DNA of 64,000 nt from Acidobacteriota bacterium. Its GTDB lineage: Bacteria > Acidobacteriota > Terriglobia > Terriglobales > Acidobacteriaceae. Shown here piece by piece: positions 42,738-49,955 of the stretch. Every line of letters starts with the position of its first letter. Position 1 is the stretch's first letter. The notes beneath the pieces are model-generated. The model saw nothing but the letters and a program-made list of their open reading frames with translations. It made no database searches and had not been told where the DNA came from. The stretch lies in NCBI GenBank assembly GCA_003225055.1, contig QIAU01000123.1, positions 50,353 through 114,352 of the forward strand, given 5' to 3'. The translations under genes were made by a program, and so were the position numbers.

Positions 42738-44375
42738 TTATTTCTGCTTTTTTTTGCCAAACAGGTTGGTCAGAGCCTCCACTGCTGACTGTCCAGTCGT
42801 TGTAGAGCCAGAGAGTCCTTTCATCTTCCCACCCATCAGGCCCTTTACGTCGGGCAAGAATCTGGGTTCGGAAGTGGTTCCCTGGATCAGAAAAGGTAAA
42901 TTCCCGCTGCTCGCATTCTTAAGACCGGCGAGCTGAGTGAGGCCTCCGACCAGGCTGCCACCGGTAAACCGGGCGTTCATCCTAAAATCAAGTGCGTTGC
43001 TGGCACTGATAATTCCCGTGCCCGTGATTTCTCCCAGAGCAGGAATTACCAGGTTAATCTGTTCCGTACGGATGCCGTTAGGGGCCACATACACCTTGGT
43101 GCTTAAGTTCTGAATGGATGTATCGGGACCGGTTTTGCCGCCGGTCAGGGAGGCAATAGCCGACATCTTGGAACCCAGGTCGAAACCCGCCAGCTTGGTG
43201 TTGGATAGCTTGATCGGGCCAGTGCTAGCCAGTTTGTCAAGCGGGCCGTTGATGGCGAGGCTAGCGGAAAGCGTCCCGCCGTTGAGCGAGGCGCCGGAGG
43301 GCAGCGTTACTCCCAGGGCGGGCAGCATGGCTTGTAATTCGTCAACCGGCATGCTTTGCCCGACCAGTTTCATGTCCAACAGGGTGGAGTCGCCTTGGGT
43401 GCGGTAATTCCCGGTCAGGCGGGCCACGGCTTTGCCAATCCTGATGTCGCCCTGGGAGAGCGTTCCGGACTGCTTTTCGAGGTCGTGAATCAAGGAGTAT
43501 TTCACTTCGACGGAGCGGCGGGCGGCGGTCGCTTTTGGATTCAACTTCAGCTTGTCGGCCCTGAGGGTTCCTGTGGTCCGAACTTGCCGACCGTCTGATG
43601 TGACCCTTCCGTCGAAGTCGGCGAGAGCGGCTAGGCCGGAGGCGGGCTCGATGAATCCCGAATCCGCCAGATCGAGTTGATGAATCTTGATGCCTGCCTG
43701 GAAGGGGGTGAGGGCTGTGTCTTCTGAATTGATTGGGCCGGCTTTGCCCTCCAGTTTCAAATCGCCACTGCCCGGCAAGTTGGCGGTTAAAGTAAATGGG
43801 AATTCGGAAGTAAAAGAAAAGTCCCGCACCTCGATGTTCACCTTGTCGTAGACCTGCGGCTTTTGTTGGGAATGGGCCTTCCCAACTGCCAGACGTCCAT
43901 TGCTGACATTCAGCCTGCTAACCGACAAATCGGGAGTGACGGATTTGGCAGGGGCAGGAGCAGGCTGGGAGTGCTTCGCCTCCGACTTGCCTCCCAAGCT
44001 CGAGAAATTCCATTTGCCCGAAGCGGTGCGCAGCAACGCAATCTCAGGCCGGTCGAGGGTCAGACTGGTCACGCGCAGGCTGCGGGACATGATCAGCGGC
44101 ATCCATTCCACTCCGACCCTAAGCGACTTGGCACGGACGAAGGGCGATTGACTGAAGGCCGGATCGTCGGCAATGGAGAGGTCATCGGCGCTTACACTAC
44201 CGGCAAGGATAGAGAGGCCCAGGTCACCGAGCTTGACCTGACGTCCTAAGCTTTCCGTCAGCTCGGATTCGAGCCGGGGGCGGAAGGAGTTCACGTTGAT
44301 GAAGGAGGGAAGCGCAACGAGGATGACGAGGGAGATTGCGATCACGATGCCGACGATGCGCAGTTTGCGTTTCAT
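42738..44375 (-). CDS. AsmA family protein
   Basis: An inner-membrane-anchored periplasmic protein of the AsmA/bridge-like lipid-transfer group, implicated in phospholipid transport to the outer membrane. An N-terminal membrane helix (RIVGIVIAISLVILVALP) is followed by the family start FINVNSFRPRLESELTESLG. Long repeated beta segments follow (LSVSRLNVSNGRLAVG, LNGGTLSASLAINGPLDKL), and the C-terminus includes DFRMNARFTGGSLVGG. I place the start at the ATG at 44375 (545 aa). The frame is open to 44660 but that part overlaps the cys leader region and lacks coding character. It is short compared with E. coli AsmA (about 617 aa). Confidence 0.85.
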   Translation of the reverse strand: MKRKLRIVGIVIAISLVILVALPSFINVNSFRPRLESELTESLGRQVKLGDLGLSILAGSVSADDLSIADDPAFSQSPFVRAKSLRVGVEWMPLIMSRSLRVTSLTLDRPEIALLRTASGKWNFSSLGGKSEAKHSQPAPAPAKSVTPDLSVSRLNVSNGRLAVGKAHSQQKPQVYDKVNIEVRDFSFTSEFPFTLTANLPGSGDLKLEGKAGPINSEDTALTPFQAGIKIHQLDLADSGFIEPASGLAALADFDGRVTSDGRQVRTTGTLRADKLKLNPKATAARRSVEVKYSLIHDLEKQSGTLSQGDIRIGKAVARLTGNYRTQGDSTLLDMKLVGQSMPVDELQAMLPALGVTLPSGASLNGGTLSASLAINGPLDKLASTGPIKLSNTKLAGFDLGSKMSAIASLTGGKTGPDTSIQNLSTKVYVAPNGIRTEQINLVIPALGEITGTGIISASNALDFRMNARFTGGSLVGGLTQLAGLKNASSGNLPFLIQGTTSEPRFLPDVKGLMGGKMKGLSGSTTTGQSAVEALTNLFGKKKQK

Positions 44376-44582
44376 TTGGCCCTGCTCCTTGTCTCGTAAG
44401 TCCAGCTTTTCTAATAGATAAGTGTATGTCTTTGGCGAGAGATCGTCGGAGGAAAGTGTGAATTCCTCAGATTCGGATTTGGGACACAGATGAGAGCTGT
44501 TTCGAGGGATCGCCGAGCGTCCGCGCAGGAATTTCTGATTCCTTCCATCGGAATTATTCATCGAAGGAACTGATGAGCTTGG

Positions 44583-44611
44583 TTGACGGGAGTGCCAGCC
44601 CGCTCTAAAAT
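44583..44611 (+). promoter_or_regulatory. Promoter of the cysteine leader/sulfur assimilation operon
   Basis: TTGACG (44583-44588), a 17-base spacer, then TAAAAT (44606-44611): five of six matches in each hexamer at ideal spacing. The expected transcription start is about 44617-44620, at or a few bases before the ATG of the polycysteine ORF (44620), so the leader mRNA is probably leaderless. Confidence 0.75.
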
Positions 44612-44619
44612 TGCAGCTT

Positions 44620-44724
44620 ATGTCGGGTAGCCAAAATTTTCGCCAGATGTGCCGGTGCACGTGTTGCTGCTGCTGTTGTTGTTGTGCATTCGTCTCTTCT
44701 GACGCGAGGGGGCTGCTGACTTAG
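44620..44724 (+). CDS. Polycysteine leader peptide (34 aa) of the sulfur assimilation operon
   Basis: The ORF reads MSGSQNFRQ, then M-C-R-C-T and eight consecutive Cys, then AFVSSDARGLLT and a TAG. Ten of its 34 codons are Cys (44650, 44656, then 44662-44685), in a mix of TGC and TGT, so it is not a simple trinucleotide slip product. There is no ribosome site. The promoter at 44583-44611 places the mRNA 5' end close to the ATG, which suggests leaderless translation; an internal ATG at 44647 is a second option. A terminator lies 26 bases after the stop and cysteine-synthesis genes follow. Known parallels are Trp/His/Leu leader peptides and leaderless polycysteine ORFs upstream of mycobacterial cys genes. 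The expected role is a ribosome-based cysteine sensor. The peptide itself probably has no function. Confidence 0.85.
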   Translation: MSGSQNFRQMCRCTCCCCCCCCAFVSSDARGLLT

Positions 44725-44744
44725 AAATTTCTTAATACCGGCAC
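44649..44744 (+). promoter_or_regulatory. Leader stem enclosing the polycysteine codons
   Basis: GTGCCGGT (44649-44656), which overlaps the first two Cys codons, is the exact complement of ACCGGCAC (44737-44744). A G-T pair can extend it to 9 bp. It would form when no ribosome sits on the first Cys codons. It is topologically incompatible (pseudoknotted) with the antiterminator pairing 44695-44712/44751-44765, so it should favour termination in untranslated leaders. Confidence 0.5.
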
Positions 44745-44765
44745 TCATAACCCACCGCCAGAAGA
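44695..44765 (+). promoter_or_regulatory. Predicted antiterminator pairing
   Basis: TCTTCTG (44695-44701) pairs with CAGAAGA (44759-44765). After a 2-base bulge GCG (44704-44706) pairs with CGC (44756-44758). G44708 pairs with C44755, and GGG (44710-44712) pairs with CCC (44751-44753). Together this takes up the whole 5' arm of the terminator. The 5' strand lies just past the Cys codons and just before the leader stop codon. A ribosome stalled on Cys would leave it free; one at the stop codon would cover part of it. Confidence 0.55.
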
Positions 44766-44790
44766 AAGCTGGCGGTGGGGTTTTGTTTTT
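44751..44790 (+). terminator. Attenuator terminator directly before the sulfite reductase start
   Basis: A perfect 11-bp stem, CCCACCGCCAG (44751-44761) with CTGGCGGTGGG (44769-44779), a 7-base loop AAGAAAG, then G and TTTTGTTTTT (44781-44790). It points toward the sulfite reductase gene, whose ATG begins at the very next base. It ends no upstream plus-strand gene other than the polycysteine ORF, which marks it as an attenuator. Confidence 0.9.
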
Positions 44791-46488
44791 ATGGCAACTA
44801 TCGAAACGAAAGCACAGCGAGCCGAACGCCTCAAGCGGGAGAAGAACCCCTGGGAGGGGCTTGAGGAAATTCGCCGTTTTGCCCGCGAGGGGTTGGCTTC
44901 GATCCCGCCGGAATGGATGGGGACTTACTTCCGGTGGTGGGGTGTATACACGCAGGGAGATGGCGCCGGCGTTGTGGGTGGGCAGGGGGGCGAGGGGCGC
45001 GCACTGCCCTACTTCATGGTGCGTATCCGTATCCCGAACGGATTGCTGCTGTCCCACCGGTTGCGCACAATCGCCGACCTCACCCAACGCTATGCCCGCG
45101 GAATTGCCGACATCACTGTACGCCAGAACATTCAGTTGCACTGGGTTACCATTGAGGCCCTCCCCCAAGTCATGGAGGCGCTGTGGCGCTGCGGGCTCAG
45201 TACTCTCGGCGCCTGCGGTGACGTAACGCGGAACATCACCGGCTGCCCGGTGGCGGGGGTTGATGGCGATGAAGTTTGCGATGCGTCACCCTTAACCCTG
45301 GAAGCCAACCGGATGCTGGTCGGGAATTCTGATTTCTACAACCTTCCCCGAAAATTCAAAATCTCAATCACCGGTTGCCGCGTGTGGTGCGCTTATCCGG
45401 AGATAAATGACATTGGACTAACCGCGATCAGGCGCGCTGTGGCCGGCAGGTCGGAGGTGGGTTTCTCGTTGCGCGTGGGCGGCGGACTTTCGGCCGATCC
45501 GCATCTGGCCGCTCGCTTGAATGTTTTTGTGCGCTGGAACCAAGTGTTGCCAGTTGTCAAAGGTATTGCCGAAATCTTCCGTGACTCGGACCAGTTGCGC
45601 GAGCATCGCGAGCGGGCGCGGCTGAAATTCCTGTTCCTCCGGCATGGCTGGACCGCCGAGGATTTCCAGAAAGACCTGGAACGACGAATCGGTTTCCAAC
45701 TCGATCCGGGGGTCGAGGAGGAGCCGCCGGCGGACATTTATCGCGACCACGTGGGGATCCATTCACAAAAACAAGCGGACTATTACTACGTGGGAGCGGC
45801 GGTCCTGCGAGGCAGAATCAGCGCGGAGCAGATCCGTGCAGCCGCTGATCTGGCCGACCGCTTTGCTGCCGGCCAATTGCGCACCACCAATATGCAGAAT
45901 CTGCTGATCGTCAACGTGCCCCGCCCCAATACGGAGCCACTGGCCAAAGAACTGGACGCAATCGGGTTGCGGGTGGGCGGATCCCCCTTCTGGCGTGGAG
46001 CCATTGCTTGCAGCGGGACGGAATTCTGCAAGCTGGCGATCACGGAAACCAAGAGCTTCTCGCGCTGGCTGGTCGAGGAACTGGAAGAACGCCTGCCTGG
46101 CTTCGATCAGGACCTCAAACTGCATGTCACCGGGTGTCCGAACAGTTGCGGGCAGCATTGGATCGCTGACATCGGGATTGAGGGCAAGAAGATCAAGCTG
46201 GATGGGCGAATGGTGGACGCCTACTACTTCTGCCTTGGGGGTGCGGTCGGTTTGAACCAGGCGACAGCCCGTCCGATTGGCTACCGTTGCCCCGCCAGCG
46301 AGGTTCCGGATGCGATCGAGCGCCTGCTGCGCCGCTACTTGGAAGGCCGCTACGCGGGGGAAAACCTGCGCCAGTTTTTTGCCCGGCATCGTGACCAGGA
46401 ACTGCGCGAGTTTCTGGCTGGCGAATGGGTGGAGGCGGTGGCAAGAGACCTGTCGCCGGGGCGCGTGCCGCACGGGCTGGAAGGATAA
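44791..46488 (+). CDS. Ferredoxin-type sulfite/nitrite reductase, siroheme and [4Fe-4S]
   Basis: Six-electron reduction of sulfite to sulfide (or nitrite to ammonia). The cluster/siroheme cysteines are Cys407 and Cys413 (CSGTEFC) and Cys449 and Cys453 (CPNSC). The paired-repeat siroheme motifs RQNIQLHWV and TTNMQNLLIV are both visible. The length is 565 aa. Context decides for sulfite: siroheme synthesis genes and APS reductase follow at once. The ATG at 44791 follows the terminator T-tract with no canonical ribosome site; the GGTGGGG of the terminator 3' arm is the only G-rich stretch, 11 or more bases away. The operon is expected to respond to cysteine through the leader. Confidence 0.92.
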   Translation: MATIETKAQRAERLKREKNPWEGLEEIRRFAREGLASIPPEWMGTYFRWWGVYTQGDGAGVVGGQGGEGRALPYFMVRIRIPNGLLLSHRLRTIADLTQRYARGIADITVRQNIQLHWVTIEALPQVMEALWRCGLSTLGACGDVTRNITGCPVAGVDGDEVCDASPLTLEANRMLVGNSDFYNLPRKFKISITGCRVWCAYPEINDIGLTAIRRAVAGRSEVGFSLRVGGGLSADPHLAARLNVFVRWNQVLPVVKGIAEIFRDSDQLREHRERARLKFLFLRHGWTAEDFQKDLERRIGFQLDPGVEEEPPADIYRDHVGIHSQKQADYYYVGAAVLRGRISAEQIRAAADLADRFAAGQLRTTNMQNLLIVNVPRPNTEPLAKELDAIGLRVGGSPFWRGAIACSGTEFCKLAITETKSFSRWLVEELEERLPGFDQDLKLHVTGCPNSCGQHWIADIGIEGKKIKLDGRMVDAYYFCLGGAVGLNQATARPIGYRCPASEVPDAIERLLRRYLEGRYAGENLRQFFARHRDQELREFLAGEWVEAVARDLSPGRVPHGLEG

Positions 46489-46493
46489 AAGGT

Positions 46494-47111
46494 ATGAGCA
46501 GCATGTTTCCCATGTTTGTCAAACTTGAAGGACGACCGGTGCTGGTGGTCGGGGCGGGCAAGGTGGCGGAAGGCAAGATCGAAGGCCTGCTCGATACCGG
46601 CGCGCAGATTCGGGTGGTTGCACTGAAAGCCACTGCCGCCGTTCGGGAACGCGCTCGCAGAAGCAAGATTGACTTCGAAGAGCGTGCTTTCACTCCGAGT
46701 GATCTCGACGGAGCGTTCCTGGCCATTGTAGCAACTCCGTCGCGCAGCCTTAATGAAGCGGTCTATCGCGAAGCGCAGCGGCGCGGGGTTCTCTGCAATG
46801 TGGTGGACGTTCCCGAGCTGTGCGATTTCTTTTATCCCGCCGTGGTTCGCCGTGGAGATCTGCAGATTGCCGTTTCGACTTCCGGCCAGAGCCCATCGCT
46901 GGCGCAGCGGGTTCGCCAGGACTTGGAACAGCAGTTCGGGCCCGGTTTCGCGGAGTGGGTGGCTGAATTGGGAGCGACACGGCGCGAGGTACTGAAGAGC
47001 GATCTCGATCCCGCGACGAAACGAGAGCTTCTACAGTCGCTCGCCAGCCGACAGGCGTTCGAAGCCAAGCTGGCAGAGTTGGTGTTAGCCGAAGAAGGAG
47101 ATGCCGCATGA
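46494..47111 (+). CDS. Precorrin-2 dehydrogenase/siroheme ferrochelatase
   Basis: The NAD-dependent oxidation and iron insertion half of siroheme synthesis (CysG N-terminal/Met8p type), 205 aa. The Rossmann motif is VLVVGAGKVAEGKIEGLL. The family segments LCNVVDVPELCDFFYPAVV and LQIAVSTSGQSPSLAQRVR are intact. The ATG at 46494 is 5 bases after the reductase stop; the open frame starts earlier inside the reductase gene but is not family-like. The stop overlaps the methyltransferase start (ATGA). It supplies siroheme for the reductase upstream. Confidence 0.92.
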   Translation: MSSMFPMFVKLEGRPVLVVGAGKVAEGKIEGLLDTGAQIRVVALKATAAVRERARRSKIDFEERAFTPSDLDGAFLAIVATPSRSLNEAVYREAQRRGVLCNVVDVPELCDFFYPAVVRRGDLQIAVSTSGQSPSLAQRVRQDLEQQFGPGFAEWVAELGATRREVLKSDLDPATKRELLQSLASRQAFEAKLAELVLAEEGDAA

Positions 47112-47902
47112 CCGGCAAAGTCTATCTGGTGGGGGCGGGGCCGGGGGACCCCGAGCTGCTCACCTTAAAAGCTCTTCGGCTGCTGAAAACAGCCGATGTC
47201 GTGCTGTACGACGAACTGGTTTCGCCCGAAATATTGAAACTCATCTCCTCGACGGCGCAGCTTCAAAACGTGGGGAAGCGTTGTGGGAACAAGACTATCA
47301 GCCAGGAAGAGATTAATTTCCTGCTGGTGACCCTGGCAGCTTCGGGGCTCGAGGTGGTGCGGCTTAAGAGCGGTGATCCCCTGATCTTTGGACGGGCCGG
47401 CGAGGAGATGGAAGCCTTGCGCAAGGCGGGAGTTGAATGCGAGATTGTGCCTGGAGTGACCGCGGCACTCGGCGCGGCTGCGGCGGCCGAGATTCCGCTG
47501 ACCGATCGGCGGCATTCATCCGCGCTGGTCCTTCTCACCGGGCATCGCGCCGGGCATGACCAGGAACAGGAAGACGACTGGAGCAAGCTGGTATCGAGCG
47601 GGGCAACGGTGGTGATCTATATGCCGGGACATCGGTATAGCGATACTGCTAGCCGCCTGCGCCGCGCAGGACTGGCTGACCAGACACCTTGCGCCATCGT
47701 CTCGCGGGCTACAACAACCGCCCAGAAAGTCCACTTGACCACCGTCGAAGATCTTCCCCGGGCCCCGCAGCTGCCTGCACCTACGCTCCTGGTGCTCGGC
47801 GACGTGGTTCGCTTCACGGAACAAGGAGAGCAGCATTTCTACTCCAGGCTCGGTGCGCTTGCAGCCGAGCCCCTTTCCCAGGATGAGGGGGCAATCTGGT
47901 GA
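47108..47902 (+). CDS. cobA: Uroporphyrinogen-III C-methyltransferase
   Basis: SAM-dependent methylation of uroporphyrinogen III to precorrin-2, 264 aa. Signatures are the N-terminal VYLVGAGPGDPELLTLKALR, DVVLYDELVS, VRLKSGDPLIFGRAGEE and the SAM-binding VPGVTAALGAAAAAEIPLT. Together with the preceding dehydrogenase it makes the full siroheme path that CysG carries as one protein in enterobacteria. It overlaps both neighbours by 4 bases. Confidence 0.94.
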   Translation: MTGKVYLVGAGPGDPELLTLKALRLLKTADVVLYDELVSPEILKLISSTAQLQNVGKRCGNKTISQEEINFLLVTLAASGLEVVRLKSGDPLIFGRAGEEMEALRKAGVECEIVPGVTAALGAAAAAEIPLTDRRHSSALVLLTGHRAGHDQEQEDDWSKLVSSGATVVIYMPGHRYSDTASRLRRAGLADQTPCAIVSRATTTAQKVHLTTVEDLPRAPQLPAPTLLVLGDVVRFTEQGEQHFYSRLGALAAEPLSQDEGAIW

Positions 47903-48606
47903 AGACGCTTGTCGAGCACATGCAGTTAGTCGTGGAGCGCTGGAGCGCTGGGGAAGTCGTGCGTTGGGCATTTGGGCGATTCGGGAATGACGTGGCGATC
48001 TCATCGGCGTTCGGCGCCGAGGGGATGGTGCTCATTGACATGGCCTCTCGGGTGCGGCCTGATTTCCGCCTGTTCACGGTGGATACCGAATTTCTCTTTC
48101 CCGAGACCTACAACCTGATGGACCAGATCGAACAGCGATATGGCATCAAGATTGAGAAGGTCTACCCGCTGTTCTCGCCGGAGGCGCAGGAACGGGAGTG
48201 CGGCCCGGCTTTATGGAGCCGCGATCCCGACCGGTGCTGCCAGATGCGGAAGGTAGAGCCGCTCCGCCGGAAGCTGGGCGAGTTGCGGGCCTGGATCAGC
48301 AGCATTCGACGCGACCAGACCGTAATGCGGGCAGGTGCGGGCAAGGTCGAGTGGGATTCGAAATTTGGACTCATCAAAATCAATCCGCTGGCGGATTGGA
48401 CGTCCAAGCAGGTTTGGCAATACATCCATGAGCACAAGGTTCCCTATAACCCCCTGCATGATCGTGATTATCCGAGTATCGGGTGCACGCACTGCACGCG
48501 TGCGGTCAGGCCCGGAGAGGATCCGCGGGCGGGTCGGTGGTCAGGGTTCGCCAAGACGGAATGCGGCCTGCACCTAGTCGAACCGGCACCTATCGCTACC
48601 AGCTGA
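47899..48606 (+). CDS. cysH: Adenylyl-sulfate (APS) reductase, [4Fe-4S] type CysH
   Basis: Thioredoxin-dependent reduction of activated sulfate to sulfite, 235 aa. The presence of Cys113-Cys114 (DRCCQMRK) and Cys196-x-x-Cys199 (CTHC) shows an iron-sulfur cluster, which by family rule means APS rather than PAPS as substrate. The catalytic Cys222 is in KTECGLH. The nucleotide loop is ISSAFGAEGMVLIDM. The start is a GTG at 47899 overlapping the cobA stop. It is the last gene of the operon; no ATP sulfurylase is in the window. Confidence 0.93.
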   Translation: MKTLVEHMQLVVERWSAGEVVRWAFGRFGNDVAISSAFGAEGMVLIDMASRVRPDFRLFTVDTEFLFPETYNLMDQIEQRYGIKIEKVYPLFSPEAQERECGPALWSRDPDRCCQMRKVEPLRRKLGELRAWISSIRRDQTVMRAGAGKVEWDSKFGLIKINPLADWTSKQVWQYIHEHKVPYNPLHDRDYPSIGCTHCTRAVRPGEDPRAGRWSGFAKTECGLHLVEPAPIATS

Positions 48607-49049: not shown

Positions 49050-49955
49050 TCAAGGCTGCTCCTGTTTTTTCGCCTTGGCAGAGACTTCCCGTATGGTCGA
49101 GATGAAGAGAGTCGCCGCGCGGGGCAAGGTACGATCACGGCGGTAGGCCAAGCCCAGTTCACGCCAGAGCTCGACGTCCTCCATCTCAATGAGTCTGACT
49201 CGCCCAGCCTCGGCCTCGTCGCGGGCAAAGGAAGCGCTGATAAGGGACACGCCGAGGTCGGCGGCCACGAAACTCTTGATCATTCCGACGCTAGGCAGTT
49301 CCATCCTGACCTGTACATCGGAGTTCTGGCCGCGAAACAAACGATCCAGCAGCCGGCGCGTGTGACCGGTTTTGGGAAAAAGCAGCGGGTATTTCAGGAT
49401 TTCGCTGACGGGAACAACCTTGTACTTGGCCAAGGGATTCTTGGGACTCACCATCAGCACCAGCTTGTCGCGGAACATGGCCTGGACTTTCAAACTCGGC
49501 GACTTCACGGGAAGGGTCACGATGCCAACGTCAATCGAGCCGTTTTCCAGCTTCTCGACAATCTTGTAGGTAAAGTTGCGGTAGATGCTGATCTGGACGC
49601 CGGGATAGAGGCGGCAATATTCGGCGAAAACCTCGGGCAATACATAAAGGCAGGTGGCCTCGTTGGCCCCAATCGATAGCGTGCCGCGGGGCGTGCGGCC
49701 ATGGTCCGCCACCGCCATCAGGGATTCGTCGCGCAAGCTCTTGAGGCGCTCGGCGTACTCGAACAGGACTTGTCCCGCCGGGGTGAGCTTCACCGATTTT
49801 CCGGAGCGGTCCAGCAGTCGGTCGCCGTATTCCTGCTCGAGCTGGCGGATTTGCGCACTGACAGCCGACTGCGAGCGGAAAACTTTTTCTCCGGCGCGCG
49901 AAAAACTCCCTTGCTTGGCAACTTCTAGAAACGTTATCAGTTGATCAAAATCCAT
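49050..49955 (-). CDS. LysR-family transcriptional regulator
   Basis: 301 aa. The N-terminal winged helix-turn-helix reads MDFDQLITFLEVAKQGSFSR then FRSQSAVSAQIRQLEQEYG, followed by the linker helix and a substrate-binding domain (LSIGANEATCLYVLPEVFAE and later). It lies 100 bases after gltB on the same strand and faces the end of the sulfur operon. Regulators of sulfur (CysB/CysL) and nitrogen metabolism both belong to this family, so control of either neighbour is possible. The ligand is unknown. Confidence 0.92.
   Translation of the reverse strand: MDFDQLITFLEVAKQGSFSRAGEKVFRSQSAVSAQIRQLEQEYGDRLLDRSGKSVKLTPAGQVLFEYAERLKSLRDESLMAVADHGRTPRGTLSIGANEATCLYVLPEVFAEYCRLYPGVQISIYRNFTYKIVEKLENGSIDVGIVTLPVKSPSLKVQAMFRDKLVLMVSPKNPLAKYKVVPVSEILKYPLLFPKTGHTRRLLDRLFRGQNSDVQVRMELPSVGMIKSFVAADLGVSLISASFARDEAEAGRVRLIEMEDVELWRELGLAYRRDRTLPRAATLFISTIREVSAKAKKQEQP

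Follow-up and report, generated by a model that had tools for sequence, protein, structure and literature searches.

A predicted cysteine-responsive transcription attenuator with a polycysteine leader peptide ahead of a sulfur assimilation operon in Acidobacteriota

Ribosome-mediated attenuators of the trp/his type are commonly set out in a four-region scheme, and a separate group of leaders devoted to cysteine, the polycysteine leaderless short ORFs of mycobacteria, was reportedly described by Canestrari et al. in 2020. As trp/his-type attenuation is described in PMC1183508, slow translation of the leader allows transcription to continue, and fast translation leads to termination. The attenuator RNA of Sinorhizobium meliloti is described as beginning with the trpL ATG, making it a possible leaderless mRNA (PMC7298713). 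The mycobacterial cys leader peptides of Seliverstov et al. (2005) are reported as having no conserved terminator hairpin (PMC1262725). The uORFC-8-2 motif found before cysS in Rhodobacterales combines two tandem Cys codons with a terminator-like 3' end, and transcription attenuation has been proposed for it (PMC8632094). The first-pass annotation of the locus reported here had located known polycysteine leaders in mycobacteria; that much is correct, but Cys leaders have also been described outside this group, as the Rhodobacterales example demonstrates (PMC8632094). Premature terminators or leader genes of Acidobacteriota have been counted in general terms (PMC2965389 and PMC4833913), and a literature search, excluding subscription papers and preprints, found among the papers listed no cysteine leader or characterised leader-peptide attenuator for this phylum.

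The window analysed comprises 64,000 nucleotides of an Acidobacteriota contig (QIAU01000123.1), on the forward strand of which positions 44620-44724 form an ORF of 34 codons, from an ATG at 44620 to a TAG at 44722-44724, with the product MSGSQNFRQMCRCTCCCCCCCCAFVSSDARGLLT. The first-pass annotation was accurate in counting ten Cys codons of mixed usage, eight of them in a row: these are codons 11, 13 and 15-22, five TGC and five TGT, and the putative sensor block they constitute (44650-44685) consists of single codons at 44650 and 44656 followed by the eight-codon run at 44662-44685. The ORF does lie, as had also been claimed, between a promoter and sulfur genes. The predicted sigma-70-type promoter, TTGACG-17-TAAAAT, occupies 44583-44611 on the same strand with 10 of 12 matches, and is the one promoter-like site in the 800-base region 44200-45000, compared with a mean of 0.2 in shuffled sequence. 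Its -10 element ends 8 nt before the leader ATG, which predicts an mRNA whose 5' end coincides with this codon or adjoins it. The same spacing measure could be applied to 124 of 156 leaders examined in relatives, after setting aside 20 without a promoter match and 12 without an ATG beyond the promoter; taking the ATG as the nearest one at least 4 nt past the best promoter, the distance was 5-11 nt in 111 of the 124 placed leaders, and a Shine-Dalgarno-like motif was present in just seven of the 124. The spacing and the scarcity of such motifs fit the prediction of near-leaderless initiation for the Cys leaders. Leaderless genes are reported at 13.3% on average across three Acidobacteria genomes (PMC3160421).

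Downstream, four genes that overlap one another follow on the forward strand in the order nirA, cysG-N, SUMT, cysH. The first, at 44791-46488, encodes a nirA-type siroheme nitrite/sulfite reductase (PRK09566, E 1.5e-107, below the curated cut-off), and is succeeded by a siroheme synthase N-terminal domain (CysG-N, 46425-47111; TIGR01470), a uroporphyrinogen-III C-methyltransferase (SUMT, 47108-47902; TIGR01469) and an APS/PAPS reductase (CysH, 47899-48606; PRK02090 and TIGR00434), all three exceeding the cut-offs of their models. The nirA product matches ferredoxin-nitrite reductase models with scores below their cut-off, and we infer that it reduces sulfite because of its siroheme and cysH partner genes in the operon. 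A LysR-family regulator is encoded on the opposite strand downstream of the operon (49050-49955), and might constitute a second layer of control on it. On the other side, a mechanically called divergent ORF with a weak YhdP-like match (42738-44660, reverse strand) overlaps the leader on the opposite strand; its start is likely the ATG near 44374, in which case the leader would be intergenic.

We consider it very likely that 44620-44724 encodes the leader peptide of a cysteine-responsive, ribosome-mediated transcription attenuator of the his/trp type, which would admit RNA polymerase to nirA-cysG-cysH when charged tRNA-Cys is scarce. Ribosome stalling at the Cys codons had been proposed as the sensor from the ORF and its context; it is the best-supported reading of the sequences and folding models, on the strength of conservation, a terminator, complementarity, state-dependent folding and a change of sensor codons in related leaders. 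The first-pass annotation did not include the terminator-like hairpin at 44751-44779 with its T-tract, nor the pairings that are alternative to it.

Conservation was assessed upstream of homologous reductase genes. Protein searches of whole genomes gave matches in 47 of 61 genomes and in 311 of 398 genomes of the family; from named contigs, the best 80 of 583 matches were used. The resulting 216 upstream regions were oriented, and the 192 that were unique and at least 170 nt long were retained, 24 being dropped. An ORF of 6-60 codons with at least four Cys per 10 codons was present in 138 of the 192 regions, as against 5 of 192 reverse complements and 49 of 3,840 dinucleotide shuffles. At a threshold of at least six Cys, the count was 80 of 192, with none in the reverse complements or the shuffles. 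At least three Cys were found in 164 of 192 regions, compared with 30 of 192 reverse complements and 530 of 3,840 shuffles; given these control counts, a three-Cys match alone carries a background of approximately 15%. Hence the claim that chance is a poor explanation of the Cys run is borne out by 138 upstream regions set against these controls, and the conservation in relatives for which the first-pass annotation had called was found rather than refuted.

The distribution extends across the class. A protein search of class genomes, with matches in 95 of 299, added 36 regions, 34 of them of readable length: within the class but outside the family of the host, at least three Cys were present in 22 of 23 regions and at least four in 19 of 23, and in 11 more regions from the same family as the host, the corresponding numbers were ten and five. 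Carriers include Candidatus Sulfotelmatobacter (L042), Candidatus Angelobacter (L097) and Candidatus Acidoferrales (L081). None of the 17 Rokubacteriota/Methylomirabilota homologs among the matches listed had an ORF with at least four Cys, despite their reductases being 67-78% identical, and so the Cys leader is no by-product of the reductase gene. At L110, L211 and L214, the ORF counted was MCCRQGK(R/P)C, which no terminator follows, and an apparent cysH lies before nirA; these were taken as false positives of the three-Cys rule. Codon preference was likewise set aside as an argument. TGT makes up 64% of Cys codons across 82 leaders, compared with 9.7% for 61 nirA genes, but other NNY codons in the leaders are also 50% T-ending, hence this control weakens the case for a preference and the bias says little.

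The putative intrinsic terminator occupies 44751-44790 on the forward strand, and is identified by a hairpin search, by folding and by covariation in 82 relatives. Its stem joins 44751-44761 to 44769-44779 through 11 pairs, and is followed by a T-tract to 44790; the layout is CCCACCGCCAG-AAGAAAG-CTGGCGGTGGG, then GTTTTGTTTTT, up to the nirA ATG at 44791. This ATG adjoins the T-tract without a clear Shine-Dalgarno site, the sole G-rich stretch nearby being the 3' arm of the terminator. Three regions could form alternative pairings. Region 1 (CGCCAGA, 44641-44647), just 5' of the first Cys codon, is complementary to region 2 and is a predicted protector, judging by the sequence, the minimum-energy fold and duplex energies over 143 loci. 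Region 2 (44695-44718), within the 3' end of the ORF, is the predicted antiterminator strand by complementarity and folding: its TCTTCTG (44695-44701) can pair with CAGAAGA (44759-44765), its G run with CCC at 44751-44753, and its TGCTG (44714-44718) with CGGCA (44739-44743). Region 3 (44739-44765), defined on the same two grounds, comprises this CGGCA, the 5' arm CCCACCGCCAG of the terminator and the start of the loop. The leader at 44620-44724 has CTGACG where most aligned relatives have CTGGC, resulting in an A-C mismatch. Additionally, GTGCCGG at 44649-44655, which spans the first Cys codon, has a perfect complement in CCGGCAC at 44738-44744, just before the terminator; these stretches are paired when the RNA is folded with a ribosome at the stop codon, and may be an extra helix particular to this leader.

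The same anatomy is widespread in relatives. Of the 164 loci that have three or more Cys, 146 carry a terminator 3' of the ORF, a median of 27 nt separating stop codon and stem; among the remaining 18, some have a terminator by a looser finder and others have none. A typical region 2, TCTGGCGCGGGGAGGCTGCTGA, is located inside the last codons of the ORF, between the Cys run and the terminator. Excluding three loci with terminators more than 60 nt away left 143 for duplex calculations, in which region 2 and the terminator arm plus loop had a mean energy of -18.5 kcal/mol, compared with -12.5 kcal/mol when region 2 was shuffled, and z fell below -2 in 97. Partners swapped in from other loci gave a mean of -17.1 kcal/mol, and a locus's own partner beat the mean swap in 100 of 143. 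Loci outside the aligned set of 82, including near-duplicates of its members, had a mean z of -1.55, with 33 of the 75 scored below -2. The core sequence is divergent in L009, L168 and L227, and by the duplex measure there is no antiterminator in the distant members L238, L240-L242 and L245, in which z was about zero or above.

The 82 aligned leaders were obtained from 103 selected by a motif, after dropping near-identical ones; this motif includes the CTGGC/GCCAG core, hence the invariance of that core is partly a selection effect, and the leader at 44620-44724, with its CTGACG, fails the motif and stands outside the set. Against a tree-based null of 500 simulations, the 12 pairs of the terminator were kept at 92.5% (null mean 72.1%) and the 16 of the antiterminator at 85.2% (null 68.9%), neither level being reached in any simulation. 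Double-sided changes were in excess for the terminator (29 vs 6 under the null, p 0.008), whereas those in the antiterminator did not exceed the null (27 vs 21, p 0.25), nor was its outer helix alone significant (p 0.13). An unbiased covariation scan over all column pairs of these 82 leaders, with a tree-based null, left no single pair significant. RNAalifold, applied to alignment A1 (52 of 83 leader stretches), recovered just three pairs, which can happen where segments have several partners.

State-dependent folding was modelled with a 30-nt ribosome footprint on RNA extending from the ATG to the terminator loop, the 3' arm being not yet made, for the 82 leaders and that at 44620-44724. On average, region 3 was paired to region 2 at a share of 0.45 without a ribosome; the value was 0.63 when the A site held the first Cys codon, 0.56 as a mean of all Cys codons, and 0.21 when the ribosome had reached the stop codon. 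The share was higher for a ribosome at the first Cys codon than for one at the stop in 82 of 83 leaders, with a difference above 0.2 in 73, although this contrast is partly (and for the region 2 block largely) geometry, region 2 lying under a ribosome that has reached the stop. For the leader at 44620-44724, the minimum-energy fold contains the 1:2 protector pairing, and the core of the antiterminator formed at 0.003 without a ribosome, and at 0.65 and 0.84 for stalls at the first and last Cys codons, respectively, but only 0.06 for one in mid-run and 0 at the stop. Region 1 is free again in mid-run, hence the strongest influence is expected from the early Cys codons. Compared with the ribosome-free state, stalling at the first Cys codon raised the antiterminator by more than 0.2 in just 31 of 83 leaders; on these models, region 1:2 protection is not general, and holds for part of the Cys-leader family. 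At equilibrium, the terminator prevailed at 0.94-0.95 in the full-length RNA of the 44620-44724 leader, whichever the ribosome state, and therefore the decision between the two structures must, on this model, be kinetic. Such kinetic decisions are a feature of known attenuators.

The proposed sequence of events begins with transcription starting at, or within a few nucleotides of, the leader ATG, such that a ribosome would load on the 5' end. Were Cys-tRNA scarce, this ribosome would pause at the first Cys codons and cover region 1, leaving region 2 free to pair with region 3 as an antiterminator, and transcription would continue. Were cysteine plentiful, translation would run on to the stop codon, where the ribosome would mask region 2; the 3:4 terminator would form, and the output would most likely be termination at the predicted intrinsic terminator.

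Translational attenuation, as in mycobacteria, would account for the same leader if its translation controlled access to the downstream start, with the hairpin sequestering that start and no termination taking place. Mycobacterial polycysteine leaderless short ORFs are reported to act on translation (PMC9031893 and PMC13236596), and the position of the nirA ATG beside the T-tract, with the 3' arm of the hairpin as the sole G-rich stretch just before it, would suit such a mechanism. Yet a stem followed by a T-tract comes after the leader in 146 of 164 loci, and the matched part of the gene begins a median of 45 nt past the terminator, placing simple sequestration out of reach in many relatives. 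We consequently regard translational control as improbable.

Transcription attenuation governed by codon sensing is also consistent with related leaders before other genes. A covariance model of 52 leaders (R1), extending from approximately the last Cys codon to the T-tract, found 67 matches at E ≤0.001 in 41 of 80 family genomes: 21 known nirA leaders, three antisense echoes, one partial match, two left unread and 40 further loci that were read. Pfam was run on 39 of the 40, counting a gene within 350 nt, and 38 of the 40 precede amino-acid or sulfur-related genes. The amino-acid genes were aspartokinase (17), homoserine dehydrogenase (three), ilvC (two), ilvD (one) and an ilvB-like gene (one); the 17 are inferred to be aspartokinases from an AA_kinase domain, joined in 15 by ACT domains. 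The sulfur-related genes were siroheme synthase (four), nitrite/sulfite reductase (four), cysK-like (one), PAPS reductase (one), rhodanese (two), carbonic anhydrase (one) and SufS-like (one), although the rhodanese, carbonic anhydrase and SufS-like loci were assigned to this group after their leaders had been seen, and leaving them out lowers the count to 34 of 40. The gene after L319 is a nirA ortholog (72% identical over 437 residues), and that after L357, the weakest R1 match, encodes an outer-membrane barrel. A Cys-rich leader with the RNA core at L345:248-362 has no recognised gene directly downstream, where there is a short unscanned ORF.

The sensor codons of these leaders, with one ORF chosen per locus by promoter score and then length, differ with the gene that follows. 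At least three Cys per 10 codons were present in 13 of 13 sulfur-group leaders and 0 of 23 others (9 of 9 without the four late assignments; a 14th, L322, is cut by a contig end, and one ilvC locus gave no ORF). Conversely, at least three Thr per 10 codons were found in 12 of 17 aspartokinase leaders vs 0 of 13 in the sulfur group. Across 18 aspartokinase leaders, being the 17 and one at L034, Thr made up 18.3% of residues (7.1% when shuffled), Ile 7.9% (3.6%) and Met 5.5% (1.5%). Three ilv leaders were read, that of ilvD being clearly rich in Val/Leu and the other two less so. Gln occupied codon 6 in 23 of 37 further-locus leaders, compared with 2.2 expected, at a position outside the R1 model; in 112 nirA leaders, Gln occurred anywhere from codon 2 to codon 10, 23 times at codon 6. 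Attenuator-like leaders, many of them Thr-rich, precede aspartokinase, homoserine dehydrogenase and ilv genes (L321, L323-L325, L327-L332, L334-L336, L338-L340, L343, L346-L348, L351, L353, L354 and L356), and attenuators of similar layout but with other sensor codons probably control these genes in relatives. The Cys-rich leaders L326, L333, L337, L344 and L352, before rhodanese-domain, cysK-like, carbonic-anhydrase-like and SufS-like genes, suggest that the cysteine-responsive regulon is wider in relatives. In four genomes of different genera (G010:C43, G092:C7, G081:C30 and G073:C18), Cys and aspartokinase attenuators stand approximately 10 kb apart on the same strand.

Recent duplication was rejected as the origin of this likeness. 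Alignment scores between a nirA leader and another type were 78.7 within genomes and 76.7 between genomes (23.2 when shuffled), and the same-genome partner was the best match in none of the nine genomes compared; a tenth pair was lost when its nirA leader was removed as a duplicate. As leaders sharing a genome are no more alike than others, any shared ancestry would lie far back, and the likeness may instead have arisen by convergence under the constraint of the terminator. In the host genome, R1 found only the 44620-44724 copy and its antisense echo, and up to 330 nt read by eye before two aspartokinase-like and two ilvC-like genes contained no such leader. A broader proposal can be offered only tentatively, with not quite an even chance of being right: that Acidobacteriota possess a family of leaderless attenuators on one RNA chassis (a Gln around codon 6/region 1, and a shared core of region 2 and terminator), which arose once and was re-coded through a swappable sensor block, with Cys for sulfur genes, Thr/Ile/Met for aspartokinase and homoserine dehydrogenase, and Val/Leu/Ile for ilv genes, serving the phylum much as T-boxes serve Firmicutes.

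These comparisons also bear on whether the product itself matters. A functional cysteine-rich micropeptide, binding metal or acting in redox chemistry, with the terminator merely separating its ORF from the operon, would be compatible with conservation of the ORF. It is nevertheless most improbable, as the number and position of Cys and most other leader residues vary among relatives, the conserved stretches being those that pair with the terminator, and similar leaders before aspartokinase and ilv genes lack Cys clusters. Sulfur genes are often controlled by riboswitches in other bacteria, such that a known riboswitch or a T-box could regulate the operon with the Cys run being incidental; Rfam detected nothing near the gathering score at the 44620-44724 locus and nothing at that score in the 20 of the 40 further loci scanned, and these readings were dropped as having scarcely any chance of being correct. 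A chance run of TGY codons can be dismissed with equal assurance: such runs are not rare in the host genome, where TGYTGYTGYTGY matches 68 times and 36 sites have a start codon yielding a 6-60-codon ORF, but, with all 68 read, a terminator-like hairpin within 110 nt past the stop follows only the five overlapping matches at 44620-44724, and the recurrence of the arrangement at orthologous places refutes the idea.

The cysteine-responsive attenuator remains the preferred reading: the Cys leader is predicted to join sensor, RNA switch and target operon, and it recurs in 138 of the 192 regions examined upstream of homologous genes, as well as elsewhere in the class outside the family of the host. 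With sensor codons that differ between leaders of similar RNA core, nature has in effect run an experiment on codon sensing, from which the amino acid read by any one leader can be predicted. The kind of attenuator is already known; this one stands apart in its lineage, its predicted leaderless form and its relatives that carry other sensor codons. Like the trp/his attenuators of E. coli and Salmonella, the locus has a leader ORF with codons for the end product of the pathway, but it differs in its cysteine signal, its sulfur operon, its predicted leaderless start, its occurrence in Acidobacteriota and a 1:2 protector that is supported in part. It shares with the mycobacterial polycysteine leaders a short ORF, predicted here to be leaderless, with a Cys run ahead of cys genes; unlike them, it has a conserved terminator-like hairpin, the mycobacterial leaders being described as translational attenuation (PMC9031893, PMC13236596). 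The resemblance to uORFC-8-2 lies in a short ORF with Cys codons and a terminator-like hairpin, although that motif has two Cys codons, precedes cysS and belongs to Alphaproteobacteria. Transcription attenuation on an RNA that begins at the ATG, as predicted here, is shared with S. meliloti trpL, which responds to Trp in Alphaproteobacteria rather than to Cys. Taken with rhizobial trpL, this hints that the pairing of a leaderless leader with an intrinsic terminator may be a plan that recurs among bacteria.
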